Source: Dactylosporangium vinaceum
Lineage (GTDB): Bacteria > Actinomycetota > Actinomycetes > Mycobacteriales > Micromonosporaceae
Length of the DNA: 64,000 nucleotides
Direction: 5' to 3'
NCBI RefSeq assembly: GCF_019904175.1
Contig: NZ_CP061913.1
Coordinates: 9,362,001-9,426,000, forward strand
Shown piece by piece: positions 15,237 through 51,936 of this stretch (the first letter of the stretch is position 1; every line of letters starts with the position of its first letter). The notes under the pieces were generated by a model. That model was given only the letters and a program-made list of their open reading frames with translations, did not search any database and was not told where the DNA came from. Position numbers and translations under genes: made by a program.

Positions 15237-16129
15237 TGCGCCACCACCATTGTCCCGAACCCCTCCGACGTGAACACTTCCAGCAGCAGCGAGTGCGGCA
15301 CCCGCCCGTCGACGACGTGCGCGGCCGGCACCCCGCCCTTGACCGCCCGCAGGCAGGCCTCCATCTTCGGCACCATCCCCGCCTCCAGGCTCGGCAGCAG
15401 CTCCGCGAGCTCGTCCGCGGTGAGCTGGGCGATGAGCGACTCCGGGTCCGGGTAGTTGCGGTACAGGCCCTCGACGTCGGTCAGCACCACGAGCTTGCGC
15501 GCCTGCAGCGCGACGGCGAGAGCGCCGGCCGCGGTGTCGGCGTTGAGGTTGTGCAGCACCCCGTCGGCGTCCGGGGCGACCGTCGACACGACCGGGATGC
15601 GCCCGGCCGCGATCAGGTCGGCCACGGCCGAGACGTTGACGTGCTCGACGTCGCCGACCTGGCCGATGTCGACGGGGGCGCCGTCGACGATCGCGGGCCG
15701 GCGCACGGCGGTGAACAGCCCGGCGTCCTCGCCCGACATGCCGACGGCGTGCGGGCCGTGCTCGTTCATGAGCCCGACGAGCTCGCGGCCGACCTGGCCG
15801 ACGAGCACCATGCGGACCACGTCGGCGGTCTCCGGGGTGGTGACCCGCAGGCCGCCCTTGAACTCGCTGGCGATGCCGAGCCGCTTGAGCATGGCCGAGA
15901 TCTGCGGCCCGCCGCCGTGCACGACGACCGGCTTGATCCCGACGTGGCGCAGGAACACCATGTCCGCGGCGAACGCCCGCTTGAGCTCATTGTCGATCAT
16001 GGCGTTGCCGCCGTACTTCACCACGAGCGTCGAGCCCGAGAAGCGCTCCAGCCACGGCAGCGCCTCGATGAGCGTATTGGCCTTGCCGAGCGCGATCCCC
16101 AGATCCCGCCCGTTCATACGCCCCCTCAT
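15233..16129 (-). CDS. argB: Acetylglutamate kinase
   Basis: The enzyme phosphorylates N-acetylglutamate, the usual arginine-feedback point. The kinase motifs are VVKYGGNAM (phosphate lysine) and [13 protein letters not shown] (substrate glycine loop). The C-terminal [12 protein letters not shown] is also typical. The ATG at 16129 was chosen because it overlaps (ATGA) the stop of the last repeat-encoded peptide upstream. It gives [18 protein letters not shown] before the conserved LIEALPW. The internal ATG at 16117, preceded by AGGGGG three bases before, is the alternative (294 residues). The overlap with argD at the other end is also four bases. Confidence 0.95.
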
Positions 16130-16375
16130 GAGCCCTCCGCTTCGCTCCGGGCCCATGAGCCCCACTGCGCTTGCTGATGAGCGGCCTCTCCGCTGCGCTC
16201 CGAACCGCTCATGAGCCCTCCGCTTCGCTCCGGGCCCATGAGCCCCACTGCGCTTGCTGATGAGCGGCCTCTCCGCTGCGCTCCGAACCGCTCATGAGCC
16301 CTCCGCTTCGCTCCGGGCCCATGAGCCCCACTGCGCTTGCTGATGAGCGGCCTCTCCGCTTCGCTCCGAACCGCT
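16127..16375 (-). repeat. Three tandem 83-bp units encoding stop-start-linked 28-residue peptides
   Basis: Units lie at 16127-16209, 16210-16292 and 16293-16375. The first two are identical; the third differs by one base (T for G), which is synonymous in the peptide. On the minus strand each unit opens ATGAGC, its ATG overlapping the preceding stop. It encodes [18 protein letters not shown], then [10 protein letters not shown], and ends TGA overlapping the next unit's ATG. The first ATG overlaps the argJ stop (16375-16377). The last TGA overlaps the argB ATG at 16129. Each unit also folds into two hairpins: GAGCGG...CCGCTC, and a GGGCCC / CCCTCC-rich one. Whether the peptides are made is unknown. 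Related copies lie at 40706-40801 and 51023-51342. Confidence 0.9.
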
Positions 16376-17550
16376 CATGAGCTGTAGGCCGAGTTCTCGT
16401 GGACGTAGCCCATGGAGAGGTCGTTCGTCCAGATGGTGGCCGCCTCGATCCCGGCGTGCAGCTCCACGGTGACGGTGACCGCCCGCCCGCTGAGGTCCAC
16501 CTTGGACCGGTCCTCGCCGGCCGCGCCGCCCTTGCAGATCCAGACGCCGTTGATGGCCACGTCGACCTGGTCCGGCTCGAACCGGGCCGAGGTGGTGCCG
16601 ATCGCGGCCAGGATGCGGCCCCAGTTGGGGTCGTTGCCGAAGAACGCGGTCTTCACGAGGTTGTTGCGGGCGATCGACCGGCCGACCTCGACCGCGTCGG
16701 CGGCCGTGTCGGCCCCGGTGACCTCGATCGCGATCTCCTTGGTGGCGCCCTCGGCGTCGGCGATGAGCTGGCGGGCCAGGTCGGCGCAGACCGCGGTGAC
16801 GGCCTCGGCCAGCTCGTAGGGCGTCGGCTCGATCCCGGAGGCGCCGCTGGCCATGAGCAGGACCGTGTCGTTGGTGGACATGCAGCCGTCGGAGTCGATG
16901 CGGTCGAAGGTGACGGCGGTCGCCAGCCGCAGCGCGGTGTCGAGCGTCGTCGCGTCGGCGACCGCGTCGGTGGTGAGCACCACGAGCATGGTGGCCAGGC
17001 CGGGCGCGAGCATGCCGGCGCCCTTGGCCATCCCGCCGACGGTGAAGCCCTGGCCGCTGTGGACGGCGGTCTTGGCCACGGTGTCGGTGGTCATGATGGC
17101 CTGGGCCGCCGCGGCGCCGCCGTCGCGGGACAGCGCCCGGGCGGCCGCATCGACGCCGGCCAGGAGCTTCGGCATCGGCAGCCGCTCGCCGATGAGCCCG
17201 GTGGAGCAGACGGCGACGTCACCGGCGCCGACCGGGAAGCGGGAGGCCCGCCCGGACAGCACGGCCGCGGTGCGCTCGGCGGTGGCGTGGGTGTCCTGGA
17301 ACCCGGCCGGGCCGGTGCAGGCGTTGGCGCCGCCGGAGTTGAGGATGACGGCCCGCACGATGCCGCCCTTCAGCACCTGCTGGCTCCACAGCACCGGGGC
17401 GGCCTTGATGCGGTTGCCGGTGAAGACGGCGGCGGCGGTGGTGTCGGGCCCGTCGTTGATGACCAGGGCCACGTCAAGCGCTCCGGCCACGGCCTTGAGC
17501 CCGGCGGGTACCCCCGCCGCCCGGAAGCCTTTCGGCGCGGTCACGGTCAT
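16375..17550 (-). CDS. argJ: Bifunctional glutamate N-acetyltransferase / ornithine acetyltransferase
   Basis: The 391-residue enzyme recycles the acetyl group from N-acetylornithine to glutamate, replacing argA and argE. It is an Ntn-type protein that cleaves itself at a threonine in KGAGMLAPGLATMLVVLTTD, here LA-T-ML. Other conserved parts are ILNSGGANACTG, SDGCMSTNDT and NDPNWGRI. The ATG at 17550 overlaps the argC stop (ATGA). Its own TGA at 16375-16377 is the first base group of the tandem repeat array. Confidence 0.97.
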   Translation of the reverse strand: MTVTAPKGFRAAGVPAGLKAVAGALDVALVINDGPDTTAAAVFTGNRIKAAPVLWSQQVLKGGIVRAVILNSGGANACTGPAGFQDTHATAERTAAVLSGRASRFPVGAGDVAVCSTGLIGERLPMPKLLAGVDAAARALSRDGGAAAAQAIMTTDTVAKTAVHSGQGFTVGGMAKGAGMLAPGLATMLVVLTTDAVADATTLDTALRLATAVTFDRIDSDGCMSTNDTVLLMASGASGIEPTPYELAEAVTAVCADLARQLIADAEGATKEIAIEVTGADTAADAVEVGRSIARNNLVKTAFFGNDPNWGRILAAIGTTSARFEPDQVDVAINGVWICKGGAAGEDRSKVDLSGRAVTVTVELHAGIEAATIWTNDLSMGYVHENSAYSS

Positions 17551-36787: not shown

Positions 36788-37774
36788 TCACCCCACGGTG
36801 AAATCATGGTCGTCGATCCACTCCTCGGACCCGTCCTTCTCGGAAACCACAAACCCCTCGACGGTGTACCGCCCGGCCGGCAACGTCAGCTGGAGGCGCG
36901 CCTCGCCCAGGGCCGGCGCACCCGCGCTGAGCTGCACCGTGCGCTCGTCGACAAGCTCCCCGGCGGCGTTGCGGACCCGCAGGTCGAGGGTGCCCTCGAC
37001 GACGACCCCGGCGAGGTACACCGTGAACGTCTTGCCCACCACGGCGCCCTCGTCGGGCTCGATGACCCACACCGGCCCCTGCAGCTCGGCCAGCAGGCCG
37101 GGCCGCATGACGCCGCCGGTGTCGACGGCGCCCCAGAGGCGGGGCTGCGCCCGGCCGTCGACCAGGAGGCGGATGCCGTCGGCGTGCTTGATCGAGGTGT
37201 ACGTCGCCGCCGCGGCCACGGTGTAGAGCAGCTGCTGCACGGCCAGCTTCGGATCGTCGGGTTTCGCGCCGACGCCGCCGAGGTCCACGGTGACCTGGGC
37301 CTGGCTGATCGTGACCCGGTTGACCTTGACGGTGCCCGGCCACAGGCTGCGGTAGTCGGGGTCCTTGGCCCGGCCCAGCAGCGACAGCTCGACGGCGGCC
37401 TCGATGCGACCCTCGTCGGTCATCGCGGTGGCGGGGAGGAACTCGCGGTACAGGCGGCCGTGGTTCGTGAAGTAGGCCGGCAGGCTGATCGTCGCCGTCG
37501 TCGCGTTCAGGCTGGGCCGTGGCGAATGCCCGGCCCCGCCGGCGGCCGGCAGATTGTCCCGCGGCGCGCGGTTGACCTGCACGGCCACCACGCCGGCGGC
37601 GATCGCGGTGGCGACGGCGGCGACGGTGCCCACGATCGTCCACAGGCGGCCGGTCCACGCGCGGGCGGCGCGGGCCCGGATGCGCGGCAGGGCGTCGGGC
37701 GACGGCTCGACCTCGTCGGCCCGGGCCCGCAGCGCCTCCCGCAAGCGATCCTCAGGAGTCCGACCGGGCCTCAC
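36788..37774 (-). CDS. Membrane protein with GerMN and Gmad2 domains, partner of the adjacent sigma factor
   Basis: The 328-residue protein has a basic cytoplasmic N-terminus of about 42 residues ([20 protein letters not shown]) and one transmembrane helix ([20 protein letters not shown]). The extracytoplasmic region has a GerMN domain ([20 protein letters not shown]...[20 protein letters not shown]) and a C-terminal Gmad2 immunoglobulin-like domain ([20 protein letters not shown]). The type-II anchoring next to a sigma factor gene resembles anti-sigma or sensor proteins. No zinc anti-sigma motif is present. Role inferred from context. Confidence 0.78.
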
Positions 37775-37835
37775 GACGTCACCTCCGCGCGCTCCGGCGC
37801 CGGCGCGAGGCCCGTCTCCCTGTGCTGGCTCACGA

Positions 37836-38465
37836 TCACAGCGCCTCTTCCAGTGTCTTGCGCAGCGCCTGCATCCCGCGGGACACGTGGCTCTTGACGG
37901 CGCCGCGGCTGCAGCCCATCGCGTCGGCCATCTCGGCCTCGGTGAGCTCGGCGTAGTACCGCAGCACGATGGCCTCGCGCTGGCGGGTGGGCAGGCGCCG
38001 TACCGCCGCGAGCACTTCCCGGTGCCGCAGCAGGCTCAGCGCCCCCGTCTCGGCGCTGACCACCACCTGCGGCCCGTCCGGCCCCTTGGCCACGTGGCGC
38101 TCGACGACCCCGCGCTTGCGCAGCGCCGACCGGGCCCCGTTGAGCACGCTGGTCCGCAGATACGCGAGCGCTTTGTCCGCGTCGCGCAGGCGCCCCCACC
38201 TGCGGTGCAGCGCCACGTACGCGTCCTGGACCACGTCCTCGGCCACCGCCTCGTCGTGCAGCAGCAGCACCGCGAGCCGGACCAGCCCCCGGTAGTGGGC
38301 GGCGAACAGCGCCCCGATGGCGTCGTCGGCGCTCAGGTGGTGGAGGTCGTCCACCTCCGCGCCGCGCGCCGAATCGCCGGGGGTCGCTGCCTGCACGGGC
38401 CCACGGTGCCATGCCGCGGCCGCGGTTTCGGCTGTCACGCCCAGACGACGCGCGGGTCCGCCCAT
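37836..38465 (-). CDS. SigE-type ECF-like RNA polymerase sigma factor
   Basis: The 209-residue sigma-70-family protein has region 2 in FAAHYRGLVRLAVLLLHDEA with DVVQDAYVALHRRW. Region 4 is in RLPTRQREAIVLRYYAELTE and MADAMGCSRGAVKSHVSRGM. The start is uncertain: ATG 38465 is used, but GTG 38396 (VQAATPGDSARG) would remove a poorly conserved 23-residue lead. It belongs to the actinobacterial SigE-family subset found with GerMN-type membrane proteins. Its 5' end faces the plus-strand gene at 38504, leaving 38 bases. Confidence 0.88.
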   Translation of the reverse strand: MGGPARRLGVTAETAAAAWHRGPVQAATPGDSARGAEVDDLHHLSADDAIGALFAAHYRGLVRLAVLLLHDEAVAEDVVQDAYVALHRRWGRLRDADKALAYLRTSVLNGARSALRKRGVVERHVAKGPDGPQVVVSAETGALSLLRHREVLAAVRRLPTRQREAIVLRYYAELTEAEMADAMGCSRGAVKSHVSRGMQALRKTLEEAL

Positions 38466-49301: not shown

Positions 49302-51026
49302 GTGTCCGAAACGCCTCGCGTCTCTCTGCGGTCACTACTGCCCTACCTCCGCGATCACCGGGCCACCCTCGCCCTCGTCGGTGTCCTCTCCCTCTTCGGC
49401 GCGGTCACCACGCTCGCCCAGCCGCTGCTCACCCGGCAGGTCCTCGACGGGCTGCAGGCGTCGCAGAAGATCGCCGGCACCGTCGCCCTGCTGGTCATCG
49501 TGCTGGCGGCGGTCGCCGTGCTCAACGCGGTCCGGGACTACCTGCTCCAGCGCACCGCCGAAGGCCTCGTCCTCGGCTCGCGGCGGCGGCTGACCCGGCA
49601 CCTGCTGCGGCTGCCGATCAGCGAATACGACAGGCGGCGGACCGGTGACCTGCTCTCGCGGGTCGGGGCCGACACCACGCTGCTGCGGGCCGTCGTCACG
49701 TCCGGGCTGTTCGAGACCGTCACCGGGGCGGTCATGGTGGTCGGGGCGACGGTGGCGATGCTGCTGCTCGACTGGGTGCTGTTCCTCACCGCCGCGCTCG
49801 GGCTCGCGCTGGGGCTCTCGATCGCCCTCGTCTTCTCCCGGCGGGTTCGGCCCGCCTCGGAGGAGGCCCAGGCCCGCATCGGTGAGATGACGAGCGCTGT
49901 CGAGCGGGCGCTGTCGGCTGCCCGGACCATCCGGGCCAGCAACGCCGAGGACCGCGAGATCGCGACCGTCGAGTCGAGTGCCGAGGAGGCGTACCGGGCC
50001 GGCGTCCGCATCGCCCGGCTCCAGGCGATGATCGGGCCGGCCAGCATCGCGGCGATCCAGGGTGCCTTCCTGCTGCTGCTCGGCGTCGGCGGGGCGCGGG
50101 TGGCGGCCGGCACGATCTCCGTCGGCGACCTGGTGGCCTTCGTCCTTTACCTGTTCTTCCTGGTCATGCCGCTGGGGCAGGCCCTGCACGCGTACACCCA
50201 GCTCCAGACCGGGCTCGGGGCGCTGCAGCGGATGGAGGACATCCTGGCGGTACCCCTCGAGGCCGACGCCGGCACCGCGACGCCCGCGAGCACGCCGGCG
50301 GCGGTGGTGTTCGAGCGCGTCACATTCGGCTACGACCGGAGCCCGATCGTGACCGACGTCTCATTCACTGTCGCCTACGGCACCCGCACCGCCCTGGTCG
50401 GCCCGTCCGGTGCCGGCAAGTCGACGCTGCTGCAGCTGGTCGAGCGCTTCTACGACGTCACCGCGGGCACGATCCGGGTGGCCGGGGCCGACGTGCGCGA
50501 GCTGCCCCGGCAGGTGCTGCGGGCCCAGCTCGGCTACGTCGAGCAGGAGGCACCGGTGCTGGCCGGCACGCTGCGGGAGAATCTGCGCCTGACCGTGCCG
50601 GCGGCGACCGAGGCGCAGATGCTGCAGGTCCTCGCGGCGGTGAACCTGACGGAGATCGTCAGCCGCACCCCGGAGGGGCTCGACGCCCAGGTGGGCGAGG
50701 GCGGCGTGCTGCTGTCGGGCGGTGAGCGGCAGCGGCTGGCCATCGCCCGGACCCTGCTGGCGGCGCCCCCGATCCTGCTGCTGGACGAGCCGACGTCGAA
50801 CCTCGACGCGCGCAACGAGGTGGCCCTGCGCGAGGCGATCGACATGGTGGCCCGCGACCGGACGATGATCGTTGTCGCGCACCGCCTCTCGACGGTGGTC
50901 GACGCGGACCAGATCGTGGTGATGGACGGCGGCCGGGTCGCCGCGGTGGGCCGGCACGAGGAGCTCCTGGAGATCAGCCCGCTCTACCGCGAGCTCGCCA
51001 CCAACCAGCTCCTCGTGGCGCCGTGA
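49302..51026 (+). CDS. ABC transporter, fused permease and ATPase (type I exporter)
   Basis: The 574-residue half-transporter has six helices in residues ~20-310. The ATPase domain has Walker A VGPSGAGKSTLLQL, signature LLSGGERQRLAIARTLL, Walker B ILLLDEPTSNLD and the H-loop VVAHRLSTVVD. It resembles MsbA/LmrA-type multidrug or lipid exporters. It starts with GTG 49302 and lies on the plus strand in an otherwise minus-strand housekeeping region. Its stop (51024-51026) is the first codon of the repeat array. Confidence 0.93.
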   Translation: MSETPRVSLRSLLPYLRDHRATLALVGVLSLFGAVTTLAQPLLTRQVLDGLQASQKIAGTVALLVIVLAAVAVLNAVRDYLLQRTAEGLVLGSRRRLTRHLLRLPISEYDRRRTGDLLSRVGADTTLLRAVVTSGLFETVTGAVMVVGATVAMLLLDWVLFLTAALGLALGLSIALVFSRRVRPASEEAQARIGEMTSAVERALSAARTIRASNAEDREIATVESSAEEAYRAGVRIARLQAMIGPASIAAIQGAFLLLLGVGGARVAAGTISVGDLVAFVLYLFFLVMPLGQALHAYTQLQTGLGALQRMEDILAVPLEADAGTATPASTPAAVVFERVTFGYDRSPIVTDVSFTVAYGTRTALVGPSGAGKSTLLQLVERFYDVTAGTIRVAGADVRELPRQVLRAQLGYVEQEAPVLAGTLRENLRLTVPAATEAQMLQVLAAVNLTEIVSRTPEGLDAQVGEGGVLLSGGERQRLAIARTLLAAPPILLLDEPTSNLDARNEVALREAIDMVARDRTMIVVAHRLSTVVDADQIVVMDGGRVAAVGRHEELLEISPLYRELATNQLLVAP

Positions 51027-51349
51027 GCGGTAACGAGCGAAGCGAGTTGGCCGCTCACCAAGCAGCACAGTTCGGCGCCGGCGCCGGAGCCTGCGGAGGC
51101 GCCGTGAGCGGTAACGAGCGAAGCGAGTTGGCCGCTCACCAAGCAGCACAGTTCGGCGCCGGCGCCGGAGCCTGCGGAGGCGCCGTGAGCGGTAATGAGC
51201 GAAGCGAGTTGGCCGCTCACCAAGCAGCACAGTGTGGTGGCGGTGCCGGAGCCTGCGGAGGCGCCGTCGGTAAGGAGCGAAGCGAGTTGGCCGCTCACCA
51301 TCAGCACAGTTCGGCGGCGGCGCCGGAGCCTGCGGAGGCGCCGGCATGA
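51023..51349 (+). repeat. Four tandem ~81-bp units forming a 108-codon ORF between the ABC and kinase genes
   Basis: Units start at 51023, 51104, 51185 and 51266. The first two are identical; the third has base changes and the fourth is 77 bases. The period of 81 keeps one reading frame. It opens with GTG overlapping the exporter's stop (GTGA) and encodes [18 protein letters not shown], then [10 protein letters not shown], repeated. In unit four a one-base loss shifts the frame so that the TGA (51347-51349) overlaps the kinase ATG. The peptide is homologous to those encoded by the argJ-argB units. Each unit also contains two G/C-rich hairpins. Whether it is translated is unknown. Confidence 0.88.
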
Positions 51350-51936
51350 GCGCGCCCGCGTGGGTGGTGGCCGGGCCGCCCGGGGCCGGCAAGTCGACGG
51401 TGGCCAACCTGCTGCTGCGGCTGCTCTCCCCCACTCCGGCGCTGCTGGACAAGGACACCGTCTACGGCGACTTCGTGGCGGCCACGCTGGAGGCGGCCGG
51501 GCGCCCGGCCGGCGAGCGCGAGGGGCCCTGGTACGACGCGAACATCAAGGTGCACGAGTACGCCGGGCTGGCCGCGACCGCCCGGGAGATCCGCGGCCAC
51601 GGCTGCCCGGTCCTGCTCTCGGGGCCGTTCACCGGCCAGATCCGCGACCCGGTGCGCTGGGCCGCGTTCGTCTCGGCGCTGGGTGGCGACCCCGTGACGC
51701 TCGTCTGGGTCCGCTCCGACCCGCAGACCCTGCGGCAGCGGCTGCTGGAGCGCGGCTCGCACCGCGACGGGCAGAAGCTGGCCCGCTGGCCGGAGTTCCT
51801 GGCCGCGATCCCGCCCGGCCGCGCACCGGCCGTGCCGCACGTCGAGGTCGACAACCGGGCCGGCGCGCCGCCGCTGCTACAGCAGATCGAGCGGATCCAC
51901 CTGAATCTTGACCGGATCGGCGGCCTTCCGGACTGA
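51346..51936 (+). CDS. P-loop kinase-like ATP-binding protein
   Basis: The 196-residue protein has Walker [18 protein letters not shown] at the N-terminus. Other features are a [19 protein letters not shown] switch-like segment, [12 protein letters not shown], and a lid-like arginine stretch [16 protein letters not shown]. It resembles AAA_33/zeta-toxin-like or chloramphenicol phosphotransferase-like small kinases; the substrate is unknown. The ATG overlaps the stop of the repeat ORF, so its translation may depend on reading through the array. Its 3' end overlaps priA by 60 bases on the other strand. Confidence 0.78.

Follow-up and report, generated by a model that had tools for sequence, protein, structure and literature searches.

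A probable MIRU-like start-codon element behind the exporter–kinase repeat array of Dactylosporangium vinaceum

MIRUs are units of 40–100 bp found at 41 loci of M. tuberculosis H37Rv (PMC2734929), and their published unit lengths are 77 and 53 (PMC4213456). According to PMC12548453, which cites Supply et al. 1997, they are apparently mobile and insert at start codons, where they couple an inner ORF to the gene at a spacing of −4 nt. Our account of them draws on PMC12548453, PMC2734929, PMC4213456, and PMC4128351. The Dactylosporangium repeats described here likewise consist of dispersed units of 40–100 bp at dozens of loci (115 units at 57 sites), form tandem arrays, and are inserted at start codons between codirectional genes, with an internal ORF coupled at −4 nt (52 of the 57 sites are closed by a 4-nt overlap, and empty sites carry a single ATGA). 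By our own observation, the MIRU lengths 77 and 53 are 2 mod 3, as are the Dactylosporangium lengths 89, 86, and 83. In contrast to MIRUs, the units belong to another genus, measure 80–90 nt, and have two palindromes with GGAGC-loop-GCGGA cores; their start codon lies within a covarying hairpin, and their arrays are read through as a single ORF or continue in frame into the gene. Judged by description rather than by sequence homology, the Dactylosporangium element is of the same kind as MIRU in mechanism, and we call it MIRU-like, not MIRU. REP/BIME elements with RAYT are also short imperfect palindromes in tandem, intergenic clusters, but this genome has no RAYT match, and REPs are not characterized by frame-closed ORFs or by the targeting of start codons. 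Ordinary ATGA termination–reinitiation junctions are, judging from the congeners, the likely ancestral state of the occupied junctions, although they have no insert, extra ORF, or added GGAGG. Our literature search found no paper describing repeats of this kind in Dactylosporangium or Actinoplanes.

The array between the exporter and kinase genes

The array lies in the 12-Mb genome of D. vinaceum, at positions 51023–51345 (+) of the window (the whole 64-kb stretch of DNA analyzed), and is composed of three 81-nt units followed by one 80-nt unit. TRF delimited it at 51017–51343, with a period of 81, 4.1 copies, 93% matches, and a score of 563. The array and its arithmetic are certain. The features of the locus, and the two other copies in the window, are as follows.

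49302..51026, + strand: ABC exporter (membrane and ATPase domains), upstream gene; ORF with Pfam PF00664 (E = 3.4e-42) and PF00005 (E = 3e-32)
51023–51103, 51104–51184, 51185–51265, and 51266–51345, + strand: tandem array of the MIRU-like element; TRF and unit boundaries
51023..51349, + strand: run-through ORF of the array, 108 codons, GTG to TGA; ORF list
51023..51058, + strand: hairpin 1 of unit 1 (GTGAGCGG...CCGCTCAC), start codon within the stem; fold and family covariation
51074..51103, + strand: second palindrome of unit 1 (GGCGCC...GGAGCCTGCGGAGGCGCC); fold, with weaker comparative support
51334..51338, + strand: GGAGG Shine-Dalgarno-like site supplied by the last unit, 7 nt 5' of the kinase ATG; sequence
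51346..51936, + strand: P-loop kinase (AAA_33), downstream gene; ORF with Pfam PF13671 (E = 1.3e-9)
16129..16378, − strand: argJ–argB array, the second of this family in the window; three units of 83 nt, each containing an ORF of 28 codons, with ATGA closure
37774..37839, − strand: third copy, single and truncated; 65 nt from GTGA to GTGA, closed 22-codon ORF

An earlier note on this DNA had described units of about 81 bases that read as one ORF, lie between an ABC exporter and a P-loop kinase, and are joined to both by 4-base overlaps. Each of these statements was borne out: the boundaries give 81/81/81/80 and 108 codons from GTG to TGA, the Pfam matches identify the neighbors as named, and the ORF overlaps the exporter stop by GTGA and the kinase start by ATGA. 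The note also ascribed the fit of the end frame to a one-base change in the last unit. A single net base does set the end frame, but unit 4 need not be the unit that changed. Relative to unit 1, unit 4 is 3 nt shorter where GTGAGCGG is replaced by GTCGG, 1 nt shorter at a second position (CTCACCATCAG against CTCACCAAGCAG), and 3 nt longer owing to a GGC 5' of the ATG. The CTCAC...CAG spacing is 16 nt in unit 4 and in most 89-nt and 86-nt copies elsewhere, versus 17 nt in units 1–3. Because unit 4 has the majority spacing, a deletion in this last unit is no more likely than an insertion in the units that were amplified.

The dispersed family and the structure of its units

We counted 141 occurrences of the core GGAGCGNAGCGNA in the 12-Mb genome and 3 of the reversed control, and the array is therefore far beyond chance. 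With two mismatches allowed, the unit head has about 113 copies in this genome and no more than two per genome in 394 others from the class, and is almost absent from sampled genomes of the same order. When we surveyed the stretches around the core sites of the D. vinaceum genome, the downstream gene start was resolved at 57 element sites, whose 115 units are mostly 81–90 nt long. Most often the unit measures 89 nt (ATGAGCGGTACGGAGCGCAGCGGAGTGGCCGCTCATCAGTGTTGCAGGGCGGAGCTCAGGCCGGCGCCGGAGCTTGCGGAGGTGGCGGC, then ATGA); other lengths are 80, 81, 83, 84, 86, 88, 90, and 92 nt, and some units are truncated. The exact array unit used as a query matched only the exporter–kinase array, because its subfamily has GAGCGAAGCGAG where most others have GGAGCGNAGCGGA. 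The core-plus-GGCC pattern was found in 7 of 7 sampled Dactylosporangium genomes, 2 to 87 times each; outside the genus it occurred 26 times in one genome and sporadically elsewhere in the family. The window itself contains three element loci (the exporter–kinase array, the argJ–argB array, and the copy at 37774–37839), and the kinship that the earlier note had seen between the first two was upheld, both being members of one dispersed family. It is nearly certain that this is a dispersed element sited at start codons. As a side observation, the genome with 26 matches (G061), from another genus of the same family, was the sole rich genome outside Dactylosporangium in our sample, and horizontal spread or a second host is possible for its copies.

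Each unit comprises a 5' imperfect palindrome that opens with the start codon (ATGA or GTGA), a spacer, and a second GC-rich palindrome that terminates in GGAGG and a short spacer. Hairpin 1 pairs ATGAGCGG with CCGCTCAT, and its variants are changed on both sides (GTGAGCGG/CCGCTCAC, GTGAACGG/CCGTTCAC, ATGACCGG/CCGGTCAT, and ATGAGTGG/CCACTCAT). Across 27 distinct units, 94.9% of cells pair, and there are 25 two-sided changes versus 6.3 in shuffles; none of 500 shuffles reached 25, and slid controls were far lower. Thermodynamic folding of single units was no better than that of shuffles (z of −1.45 and 0.01), and the case for hairpin 1 therefore rests on covariation, not on energy. The hairpin, which is present in every unit of the array and is 3 nt shorter in unit 4, may act as RNA or as single-stranded DNA. 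The second palindrome is mostly paired by pair count, but its variable columns 64/85 show no clear covariation, and we make a weaker claim for it for this reason. The 3' part of the element reads GCGGAGG plus 7 nt, after which the next start follows, and GGAGG, AGGAG, or GAGGT precedes the start at 52 of the 57 element ends in D. vinaceum. No Rfam model matched positions 50900–51500 up to E = 1. We also observed that the apex of the core reads GCGNAGC (e.g., at 51035–51046), with all four bases occurring at N, and that the flanking GGA...GGA could contribute sheared G-A pairs. GCGNAGC is a type of very stable DNA mini-hairpin with a GNA loop (PMC4686876); the apex fits this type, a likeness that we offer as a lead only.

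Frame closure and the state of the junctions in congeners

The frame at the gene start follows a simple rule: a last unit of length 2 mod 3 gives an ORF whose terminal TGA overlaps the gene start, and a last unit of 0 mod 3 lets the ORF continue in frame into the gene. In D. vinaceum, 52 of the 57 sites are closed, 5 are fused in frame, and none is broken, after correction of one misassigned end (L133, whose units are 90/90/89 and which is hence closed). The count in four congeners (D. fulvum, D. sp. AC04546, D. sucinum, and G064) gave 36 closed, 19 fused, and 1 broken, after correction of four misassigned ends. The apparent frame-breaker is a 139-nt array in D. fulvum, and only 1 of 40 distinct array lengths breaks the frame. 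In other words, 112 of the 113 sites resolved across five genomes keep the frame at the gene start, as the earlier note had reported for the array. These results strongly support frame closure as a rule, with the caveat that the sites are related by descent and the counts are not independent events; given the shared descent of the units, many sites owe their closure in part to inheritance and not to independent selection. The earlier note had contrasted the reading-frame solution of the exporter–kinase array with that of the arg array. This solution is not unique, as at least four other multiple-of-three arrays end in a unit of 2 mod 3 that closes them, namely 90/90/89 (L079 and L133), 84/84/83 (L082), and 84×4+29 (L105). 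Judged by frame composition, the first start overlaps the end of the upstream coding frame at 43 of the 57 sites; several of the remaining first starts are preceded by intergenic sequence.

The nearest named relatives are other Dactylosporangium species. Their exporter–kinase junction is a bare ATGA overlap in D. sp. AC04546 and D. sucinum and a bare GTGA in D. aurantiacum. In D. siamense it holds a frame-closed half-element of 32 nt. The D. fulvum junction also has a half-element; there the exporter stops at TAA and the kinase starts at a GTG preceded by GGAGGG, with no overlap. D. fulvum also has a bare ATGA between argJ and argB and a bare GTGA at an ABC junction. Conversely, a site filled in D. 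sucinum is empty, with a bare ATGA, in D. vinaceum, D. fulvum, and D. sp. AC04546 (GTGCGCAT-ATGA-CCTTGACG), and the D. sucinum insert there is flanked by ATGA on either side. Occupied sites read ATGA-[element]-ATGA, and the element loci differ between the species. Since empty sites have a single ATGA and inserts have ATGA on both sides, the overlaps at the array ends represent the residue of insertion at ATGA, not a locus-specific construction. The earlier note had named homologous loci with a broken frame, or a kinase start with a strong ribosome site of its own, as what would count against its reading, and this was partly observed: a strong GGAGG lies 7 nt 5' of the kinase ATG, and the D. 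fulvum junction, with its half-element, lacks the overlap and has its own GGAGG before GTG. Furthermore, the L127 locus of D. vinaceum (9460432–9460610) and a D. fulvum junction near 8108016 are the same junction with different element subfamilies, which suggests repeated insertion or turnover at favored junctions.

Explanations for the array

We consider that the array arose by local expansion from a MIRU-like, mobile or expandable Dactylosporangium element that acts as a translational relay and is tolerated rather than locus-specific, and we put the probability of this reading at about 0.8. Copies of the element sit at gene start codons, mostly where the start overlaps the preceding stop (ATGA), with ATGA or GTGA left on either side. 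The stop of the upstream gene overlaps the start of the first unit; each unit forms a short ORF, units of length 0 mod 3 merge into one ORF, and the TGA of the last unit overlaps the gene start while placing GGAGG ahead of it. Ribosomes would translate the array ORF and then re-initiate at the kinase. Closure is presumably maintained by selection against translation-breaking inserts, and the presence and absence of copies across genomes indicate that the element probably moves or once moved. At this locus, plain ATGA coupling between exporter and kinase most likely gave way to a relay that brings a ribosome site of its own, and the effect on kinase output is most likely little or modest. A neutral or mildly tuning effect is likely because three congeners have bare junctions, and the kinase may not need coupling at all because of its direct GGAGG site.

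Several other readings were weighed. If the array were a locus-specific regulatory device, its copy number and start-codon hairpin would tune kinase translation against that of the exporter, and it would be kept for this purpose. The start codon does sit in a conserved, covarying hairpin, half-elements occupy the same junction in D. fulvum and D. siamense, and another junction (G000 concatenate 138663) has differing arrays in two species. However, the junction is a bare ATGA or GTGA in three congeners, the same element precedes dozens of unrelated genes, and in D. fulvum it is absent from argB and from an ABC gene; we regard such a device as unlikely. Still less probable is a REP/BIME-type palindromic element moved by a RAYT (Y1) transposase, with its siting at start codons a side effect. 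Two imperfect palindromes per unit and the tandem arrays fit this, but the entire D. vinaceum genome contains no Y1 transposase match (PF01797; the control was positive in 5 of 14 genomes), and exact start-codon placement with frame closure is foreign to REP.

The least probable reading is a functional repeat-peptide gene of 108 codons, which we regard as very improbable. The frame is open in 38 of 38 arrays of the 89-nt type and in the exporter–kinase array, as would be expected if an open frame, and not a certain peptide, is needed. Diversity at codon positions 1, 2, and 3 of the 89-nt unit (positions 5–89) is 0.207, 0.204, and 0.159, and the synonymous fraction is lowest in the ORF frame (0.157 versus 0.307 and 0.385 in the others). 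Because the variation has no third-position excess, selection probably does not act on the peptide, and the idea of a meaningful repeat peptide is not supported; Pfam gave only sub-threshold HTH and weak Gly-zipper matches, and the peptide is missing at the congener loci. A peptide function was discarded on the codon-position data. Returning to the MIRU-like relay, two D. fulvum findings count against it, namely the apparent 139-nt frame-breaker and the exporter–kinase insert, which ends the overlap. As to how the element might move, we tentatively suggest, at odds well below even, start-codon-targeting transposition, in which the GGA-GC-loop-GC-GGA cores would form highly stable single-stranded DNA mini-hairpins recognized by a putative enzyme inserting at ATGA, and the stop–start relay carried by every insert would keep it harmless.

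The family shows that frame-closed repeats inserting at start codons are not peculiar to mycobacteria. With more than 100 copies, units of several lengths, and close relatives whose sites are empty, the soil bacterial genus Dactylosporangium is convenient for studying how such elements move and for asking whether a translational relay lets repeats live harmlessly inside operons. For annotation, ORFs of 28–30 codons and longer run-through ORFs are unlikely to be genes when they lie at such junctions, and 84-nt units can displace the called start of the following gene. At L072, L113, and L125 in D. vinaceum and at L263, L267, and L274 in congeners, an array of 84-nt units reads in frame into the gene behind it; each unit there offers an in-frame ATG, a gain of 28 residues per unit in the protein is possible, and the start-site annotation of genes behind such arrays is probably unreliable.
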